Source: a virus. From it: a DNA stretch of 53,449 nucleotides. The position numbers and the translations under genes are program-made. Shown piece by piece: positions 6,489 to 15,278 of the stretch. Location of the stretch: IMG/VR virus record IMGVR_UViG_3300006790_000003, positions 1 through 53,449 of that record; one strand, given 5' to 3'. Positions within the stretch are counted from its first letter, which is position 1. The number at the start of each line of letters is the position of its first letter. A model generated the notes under the pieces. The model worked only from the letters and a program-made list of their open reading frames with translations, made no database searches and was not told the origin of the DNA.

Positions 6489-9400
6489 TTAACATTCCGT
6501 TATAAGTTCATCTATTAATTTTTGTGAAATTTTTTCTGGAGTGTCTACTTCATTACCCCATTTAACTCTACCCATATGGTCTAATCCAGGGTAACTACCT
6601 CCAGACATAGTATCTCCATTGTTGAATATACCGCCTTTATCTTTTTGATACAAGAATAAAGAATCTCCTATCTCTTGTGCTTTTCTAAAAGATTCTATAC
6701 TTCTTAATTGCATATGTCTACCATACATACTCATACGTGTTATAACGTGTGTTGGTAGTTGTAGCTCTTTACCATTAGTAATAATATCTCTAACCATACC
6801 TACACCAAACATACTTTGCAATCTACTATATTCATCTAATTTACTAAATTCTAATTGCTCTCTCATTTTACTAGCGCTACCAGGATAGAATGCATCTACA
6901 AGTTCCGCTTTACTATGTCCTGTTGCAATTTCAAATGGTTCTACAAAGAATGAATGTTCTACATCTTTACCTGTAGCTTCATTCAATGCTTTAACATCTG
7001 TTTCTTTTCCGTGTAATCTATTGTATACATATTCATAACTTCTACCTAGACCTTTTACAAATGCATCTACTTGGTAGGTGTTAAACTTAATCATAGAACT
7101 AGTATTTGATTGTGAGTCTATCATATATCCTAGTCCTAAATTAATAAACTTTTCTACATTTTTTGTAGTAGGAGCAAAAAAGAAGTTTCCATTGTAATTT
7201 ACTAATTTACTTGTATTCATATCAGGTGTCATTAATCTTAACATAAACCAAGTTTGCTGTTGAGCATCTAGACCTTGTAAGAAGCTATCTATTTCTTTGT
7301 AAAACCAGTCTTTAATTTCTTTTTCTGTAGTCCATTTTACATTTCTTTTATCAAAATATTCTTTCCAAGCAACGCCATAGTTCTTTTTAATTTCTCTAAC
7401 CTTAGATTCAATATATTTATATTGTCCTTCATTTTTAGAAAATCCTATTTCTGAACCTAGTCTATATCCATAGAATCCAAAACCTTCCATAAGAGCTAAT
7501 GTATTAATCATATCAGAATCTCTTACAGTTTCTACTGGTATTCCATTTTCTATAAAATCTTTTTCAACTTTATTTTCAATTTCTTTGAACTCTTCTTTTG
7601 TTAGTGAGTCTTTTTTTAATTTCTTTTTTGTTTCAAATATTTCTGACCTAATTTTTGCATCTCTAATTGCTTCAAAATCTTTGTTTGTAATTAATTGTCC
7701 TTTTTTATCTTTAGTAGGTTTTGTAATTACTAATTCTTTTAGAATTTTTTCTTTAGCATATTCCAATTTTTTAATTTGTCTATTATTGTAGTTGTATGAA
7801 TTATAATGTCCTTGTCCTTTGATAGTAGCTTGTTGACGGCGACTTCTTTTCAATTTATCTATTCTATTTTGAATTTCATTTGCTACCTTTAATGCTTTAA
7901 CATCATCTTTCCACACTTTATTAAATTCTTGAATTGCACTATCCATATCTTTTAAAGGTCTATTAGTTAAATCTGATATTTCACTTTCAAAAGCATTTGT
8001 TTTTGCGCCATCTTTACTACCTACAGGTCTAAACTGAATGTTTTTAATATGCATAACTTCAGACAATACTCTATCGTGGTGCATATAATTTTCATTTGAT
8101 TTGCTTGTATTTGTTAAACGAGCATCTTTATTAAATCCACCAAAATAATCTGCTTGATAATCCCAACTTTTACCATTTAATTTATTTGCATAAATTTCTG
8201 CACGATTCATAGAATAATTGAAGTTTTCTGCTTCAGCTACTAACTCTCTAAATCCTACTCTTTGAGCTTCACCATCTTTATAAATCTTATTAGATAATTT
8301 TAAAATACTTTCATATGGACGAATTAATGCTTTGGTAATTATTTCTCTATCTTTTGTATCTATTTTAGCATTTTCTAATCTTGACAATTCAGCAGTTTCA
8401 ATATCTTTTGTTTTTCCTTTATAGGTAACATTTTTTAATTTAGCTTGTACAAAAAATCCGTCTTTTGCATTAAAGAATATATCATCCATAATACTCTGTT
8501 TATCGCTAAACTTGTTAATATCGTATCCATTTTCATAGTCTAGTATTGCCTGGTTATAGTCTGCAATCTTTTGATATACTTTCTTTAAATCAGCACCTTC
8601 TCTAATAGTGATATATCTTTTTGAACCTTTTTCACCAAATTCAAATACAATACGTTCTGATTTACCAGTTTCGCCATTAATAAAATGTTGTTTTTCTGTA
8701 GTTTTATTACTTAAGAAATATTGTACAATTCTATTAGCATTCATTAATGAACCACGTAAATATTGAGCATTTTGCTCGTATGCCATATATTGTTGAATAC
8801 TTTCAGGCGTATTTTTTAACTTATCATAATTCATTTGTCCAGGTGTTTTTTCTAACGGTTGTGAATCTTGTATCATTTCACGACCTTTAACATATTCCTT
8901 CATTACATTATTATGTGCATTCCACCAATAATTTACTGTGTCAATATCAAAGTCTCCTTCAGCCGCTCTTTTTACATCTACGCTATTTAAGTTAAACTGA
9001 TTAGACATATCTTTACTTAAAAATCCTTTTAGCCCTACAATCATTACACTACTTGGTTTAGTATGTGGATTACGCTCTACAGCTAATGCTACTTGGTATT
9101 CGTTTTTAGGTAAAGATTTATACACCGCTTGTTGCAATTCAGCCAATGTAGAGTTTTGATTAATACCTTCTAGTTCTAAGGTTTCTTTAATAACTTTATT
9201 TTTTGGGTCAAATACATCAATAACTTTATCATAATTTCCTTTTACTCTTTTAATTAAATGTACGGTACCTTTTCTTTTTTTACCCCAATCAATAGATTTT
9301 AAACCATCTGCAGATGGCAACTCAGCTTCACCATAGTTGTATATTTTACCTTCTACAATTAATGTGTTTTTTAATCGGTTTCCAAGATATACATCCCCTA

Positions 9401-15278: not shown

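Follow-up and report, generated by a model that had tools for sequence, protein, structure and literature searches.

At the end of the late unit of a virus genome held in IMG/VR as record IMGVR_UViG_3300006790_000003 lies a gene for a protein of 2929 amino acids, far from its nearest annotated counterparts in sequence and flanked by large neighbours. A first-pass annotation, made from the DNA alone, had read the product as a single-chain polymerase of the multisubunit type that the phage packages and injects. Here we ask whether the protein is indeed such an enzyme, and whether it would act from the virion. The window that we analysed is the whole stretch of 53,449 nucleotides of this record.

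A giant gene at the end of the late unit

The open reading frame at 6489-15278 on the minus strand is real, forming a single frame without stops that encodes 2929 aa. Its translation places the motifs where they had been annotated: K1743 within GGIKP, K1788 within SASK, YGGSG at 1947, RNP at 2069-2071 and GDFDID from 2108. NGITF is likewise present and starts at 1714, where 1715 had been given. The features discussed below are the following.

6489..15278, minus strand: candidate virion RNA polymerase, giant protein of 2929 aa (ORF and homologues)
9729..10148, minus strand: DPBB-B-like (beta-type) barrel region, residues 1711-1850, with invariant K1743, K1759 and K1788 (HHalign to crAss RNAP; as a second basis, VIA match to 6VR4 959-1231)
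8919..9449, minus strand: DPBB-A-like (beta-prime-type) barrel region, residues 1944-2120 (HHalign; by VIA, a weak match to Rpb1 344-514 too)
9048..9074, minus strand: RNPHTKPSS, residues 2069-2077 (R2069, P2071 and S2077 align with crAss-invariant R1322, P1324 and S1330)
8940..8954, minus strand: DFDID, residues 2109-2113, presumed Mg-binding catalytic Asp triad (conservation and alignment to phi14:2 D1361/1363/1365)
13179..15278, minus strand: residues 1-700, conserved N-terminal part (conservation, hydropathy)
17041..18405, minus strand: 454-aa neighbour in the conserved cassette (synteny)
16529..17041, minus strand: 170-aa neighbour, likely ejection protein (synteny; presumed function)
15282..16514, minus strand: 410-aa neighbour, Q-rich and helical, likely ejection protein (synteny; function judged from reading the sequence)
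3788..6488, minus strand: downstream large protein, 475 + 444 aa (one 901-aa ORF in relatives)

The polymerase-like core is flanked by about 1700 residues before it and 800 after it. Hydropathy revealed Gly/Ala-rich hydrophobic stretches in the N-terminal 700 residues (near residue 113, and at 300-330 in relatives), and this part of the sequence is possibly an ejection or membrane part.

The record carries a 123-bp exact direct repeat at its ends (1-123 and 53327-53449), indicating that the genome is probably complete, as a circular assembly of about 53.3 kb. Late genes form a unit on the minus strand, and a second unit, on the plus strand, encodes a helicase, a resolvase, an annealing protein and an exonuclease. 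The phage encodes a TerL of phrog_38, a portal of phrog_156/P22_portal and a capsid protein of SU10_MCP, and the same families were found in those relatives whose contigs extend that far. The TerL, portal and capsid proteins of phi14:2 belong to different PHROGs (phrog_6681, 6547 and 11589), and SU10_MCP is absent from phi14:2. By these three markers, therefore, the phage is not a member of Crassvirales. In a separate 71.6-kb record, IMGVR_UViG_3300030012_001696, portal, TerL and capsid matches occur twice each, and this record is maybe a chimera or two phages.

PHROG scans of the major ORFs in the genome named no other RNA polymerase, and a promoter motif search of the early intergenic regions returned only Shine-Dalgarno-like sequences and no early promoter motif. 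Two long stretches of the plus-strand early unit, 44080-45233 and 51976-52505, are without convincing ORFs and gave no tRNA or Rfam match; they might hold RNAs or early promoters.

The location of the giant gene at the late-unit end beside likely ejection proteins was confirmed, and the arrangement is kept in relatives. There the order runs 454 aa, 170 aa, about 410 aa, the giant protein and about 900 aa, followed by a convergent helicase gene, and the cassette of five genes, located where the late operon ends, has the appearance of an ejection module. Judged by eye, the 170-aa neighbour resembles short internal virion proteins of the T7 gp14 type. Against the PLxRFG domain model of giant phage proteins, the downstream large protein scored weakly and below the cut-off; its 901-aa family showed no match to the phi14:2 gp076 family or to the RNAP profile. 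In the window, the downstream gene is split by a frameshift near 5061-5085, either an assembly error or real.

Relatives and the conserved core

Homologues of the giant protein were found on 14 IMG/VR contigs, at 25-72% identity. A first scan yielded four IMG/VR contigs at about 72% identity. A scan for DNA encoding EGDFDID added nine further contigs, whose giant ORFs share 26-30% identity and align with the whole giant protein or large parts of it. When we scanned a second time, independently, for the RxPHTK motif, we recovered 12 known family contigs and one new relative, L128. Outside this set, tblastn of the giant protein against 50,697 phage records gave no match, and no relative was found in the bacterial genome contigs scanned. 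Neither the giant protein nor the family profile found anything useful in Pfam, PHROG or PDB sequences; for the family, plain hmmsearch of PDB sequences and of Pfam gave no match.

Across 13 aligned sequences, D2109, D2111, D2113, R2069, P2071 and S2077 were invariant, together with the lysines K1743, K1759, K1788, K1829 and K1832. The three Asp residues, R2069, P2071, K1743 and K1788 are unchanged in every relative covering the core, even at 25-30% identity. The proposed conservation of the Asp triad was thus borne out wherever the site is covered, including in L128, which carries DYDID instead of DFDID and so differs in the aromatic residue while keeping all three Asp. Conservation along the giant protein is highest at 1701-1800 and 2001-2200. 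The DxDxD pattern alone is weak evidence, because 48% of shuffled copies of the giant protein contain one; D[FYA]DxD appeared in 9%. The combination of D[FYA]DxD with RxP 34-40 residues upstream is informative, since only 0.08% of shuffled copies show this spacing.

We then compared the family with the virion RNA polymerase of crAss-like phages. The phi14:2 enzyme has 2180 aa and is Phi14:2_gp077 in KC821624, known as gp66 in publications and as PDB structure 6VR4. The crAss RNAP profile consisted of phi14:2 gp077 and eleven homologues from annotated phage records (12 sequences). HHalign matched the family core to this profile with a score of 66.1 (P 2e-6 over 349 columns), placing the DFDID motifs on each other, and with L128 added to the family the score was 62.7 (P 1.2e-6). 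The full 2929-residue profile chose the same place on the crAss RNAP profile (score 66.9), while the stretch upstream of RxP/DFDID was enough for a match (score 50.7). Column-shuffled templates reached at most 23.1 (60 shuffles) and 28.4 (150 shuffles, with L128), and the reversed template 20.2. With P at about 1e-6 and much lower scores in the shuffled controls, the homology between the core and the phi14:2 enzyme family is statistically supported.

In the HHalign alignment, residues about 1711-2118 are collinear with crAss RNAP over both double-psi barrels, at about 17-18% identity. The double-psi barrel reading of the first-pass annotation is supported by this alignment over 1712-2118, in which DFDID and two Lys are aligned; the Ile that it had remarked on in place of the usual Gly is matched in the crAss family, which has Ile or Val there too. 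Nine of the 16 crAss-invariant residues land on identical invariant residues here (phi14:2 numbering first): K1012 on K1743, K1065 on K1788, G1235 on G1948, R1322 on R2069, P1324 on P2071, S1330 on S2077, D1361 on D2109, D1363 on D2111 and D1365 on D2113. K1759 is one column off crAss K1027. As the alignment is optimised for similarity, this overlap is an illustration, and the shuffles are the actual test. Single-sequence HHalign comparisons with phi14:2 gp077, P23-45 gp64, P23-45 gp96 and Fpv1 were silent, so the core match appears only with the profile of the crAss family. The region after the DFDID motif, where bridge helix and trigger loop would lie, gave no HHalign match to that profile.

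Structure models of the core

Two AlphaFold models of the core region had low confidence (pLDDT 51.5 and 54.5), with barrels not discernible, and Foldseek of the models against the PDB found no significant match. By VIA-align, the smaller and better of the two models matched 6VR4 first, with a Z of 7.8 over 178 residues (rmsd 13.7), a value within the range below 8 that can be chance; the next unrelated chain had a Z of 4.0. Model residues 17-249, corresponding to 1711-1943, fall on 6VR4 959-1231 in the same register as in HHalign, and QDE-1 and Rpb1 barrel segments were also listed at Z about 3. The 6VR4 match thus counts as support for a crAss-type core, not as proof. For the 1101-aa model, VIA listed only helical matches and not 6VR4, a result that excludes nothing. 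The AlphaFold check suggested in the first-pass annotation yielded the expected enzyme as best structural match, from models too poor to display the barrels themselves. In BFVD, the best matches were two unnamed viral proteins, the first at 28% identity, which are probably further family members. Ranks 1-3 were all unnamed; rank 4 was a protein of crAss-like phage cr4_1 (E 0.02).

Proposed packaging and activity, and known systems

We estimate at about 85% the probability that the giant protein is an RNA polymerase of one chain and two barrels, packaged in the virion of a second phage lineage outside the crAss-like group, where packaging and activity are what we infer. The polymerase core would sit inside a giant ejection-type protein that is made late alongside the neighbouring ejection proteins and then packaged. 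Upon infection, the protein would be pushed into the host together with the DNA and would then refold, after which the metal site of Asp2109/2111/2113 and the lysines of the second barrel could transcribe the early plus-strand genes. The phage would thus probably inject its own transcription enzyme into the host. Our best reading joins the core homology, the conservation of the presumed catalytic residues and the conserved late-operon position to a packaging, ejection, activity and early-gene role that we infer. For packaging, ejection and early transcription we reason by analogy with phi14:2 and crAss001, in which the homologues are virion proteins (PMC7886860). More specifically, we give even odds to a crAss-type core in an N4-style giant ejection protein that forms part of the DNA-delivery channel, in a second, non-Crassvirales short-tailed lineage.

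The protein could instead be a two-barrel polymerase homologue that never enters the virion and is made late in the cell, where it transcribes late genes. Core homology says nothing about location, and phages do possess two-barrel enzymes outside the virion, as P23-45 gp64 demonstrates (PMC10770324). We consider this unlikely, because the gene belongs to a conserved cassette of likely ejection proteins that lies where the late unit ends, and the protein is giant, its first 700 residues being conserved and partly hydrophobic. Moreover, mass spectrometry identified the crAss homologues as virion proteins, both the phi14:2 polymerase (phi14:2 record) and its crAss001 homologue, H3300_gp059 (PMC10172136). 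A giant ejection or polyvalent protein whose core is inactive or serves another metal-dependent function is very improbable: the Asp triad, the Arg and two Lys are invariant at 25-30% identity, which would be unexpected if catalysis were lost, even though the region after the motif lacks a detectable match to the crAss enzyme and the downstream neighbour weakly matches a giant-phage-protein domain. An N4-like virion RNA polymerase of T7-type single-subunit fold would have a similar architecture, a giant protein in an operon with ejection proteins (PMC12633501), but its probability is close to nil given that the core matches the double-psi barrel family (HHalign and the 6VR4 structural match) and no PHROG or Pfam match to the T7/N4-type polymerase family was obtained; a whole-genome PF00940 search, whose controls were silent, carries no weight here.

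Read as a virion-packaged two-barrel polymerase, the family would be a new variant with a crAss-type core, a non-crAss phage and a larger, N4-like architecture, and it may figure in published supplementary family lists. To our knowledge, few phage groups have virion two-barrel polymerases. If a phage lineage with a 53-kb genome and unrelated families of TerL, portal and capsid has the crAss-type core, the enzyme moved between lineages or predates Crassvirales. Such a highly diverged new branch would help to establish the smallest set of residues conserved in the single-chain polymerases related to QDE-1, and the small genome with its compact five-gene cassette would be a simpler system for the threading of a giant polymerase into the cell.

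Diverse enzymes of phages and plasmids make up the known clade of single-chain two-barrel polymerases (PMC10770324). As the giant protein probably is, gp96 and gp64 of Thermus phage P23-45 are single-chain two-barrel phage RNA polymerases, gp96 being carried in the virion; however, gp96 is fused to a long-tail tape measure, and HHalign found no match to either single sequence. Flavobacterium phage Fpv1 (Fipvunavirus) has a giant structural protein with RTP...DYDID and a tblastn match from the phi14:2 enzyme, although single-sequence HHalign to the giant-protein family finds nothing. The Fpv1 record is without a Crassvirales label, and its giant protein is probably another unannotated virion RNA polymerase.

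In layout, the cassette resembles that of N4 (Schitoviridae). The N4 vRNAP, of about 3500 residues, has an N-terminal ejection part, a central polymerase and a C-terminal part, and lies in an operon with ejection proteins (PMC12633501). A giant ejected polymerase, long flanks and an operon with small ejection proteins would be common to both, whereas the N4 enzyme has the T7-type single-subunit fold and not double-psi barrels. The phi14:2 enzyme differs in its length of 2180 aa versus 2929 aa here and is similar at profile level only; our phage is non-Crassvirales with a 53-kb genome, and its large neighbour has no detectable relation to gp076. The two would have in common a one-chain core with two barrels in the same order, and they share the motif DF/YD-I/V-D, the R-x-P...S context and matching barrel lysines; in both phages other large proteins are encoded beside the gene, which lies where the late block ends.
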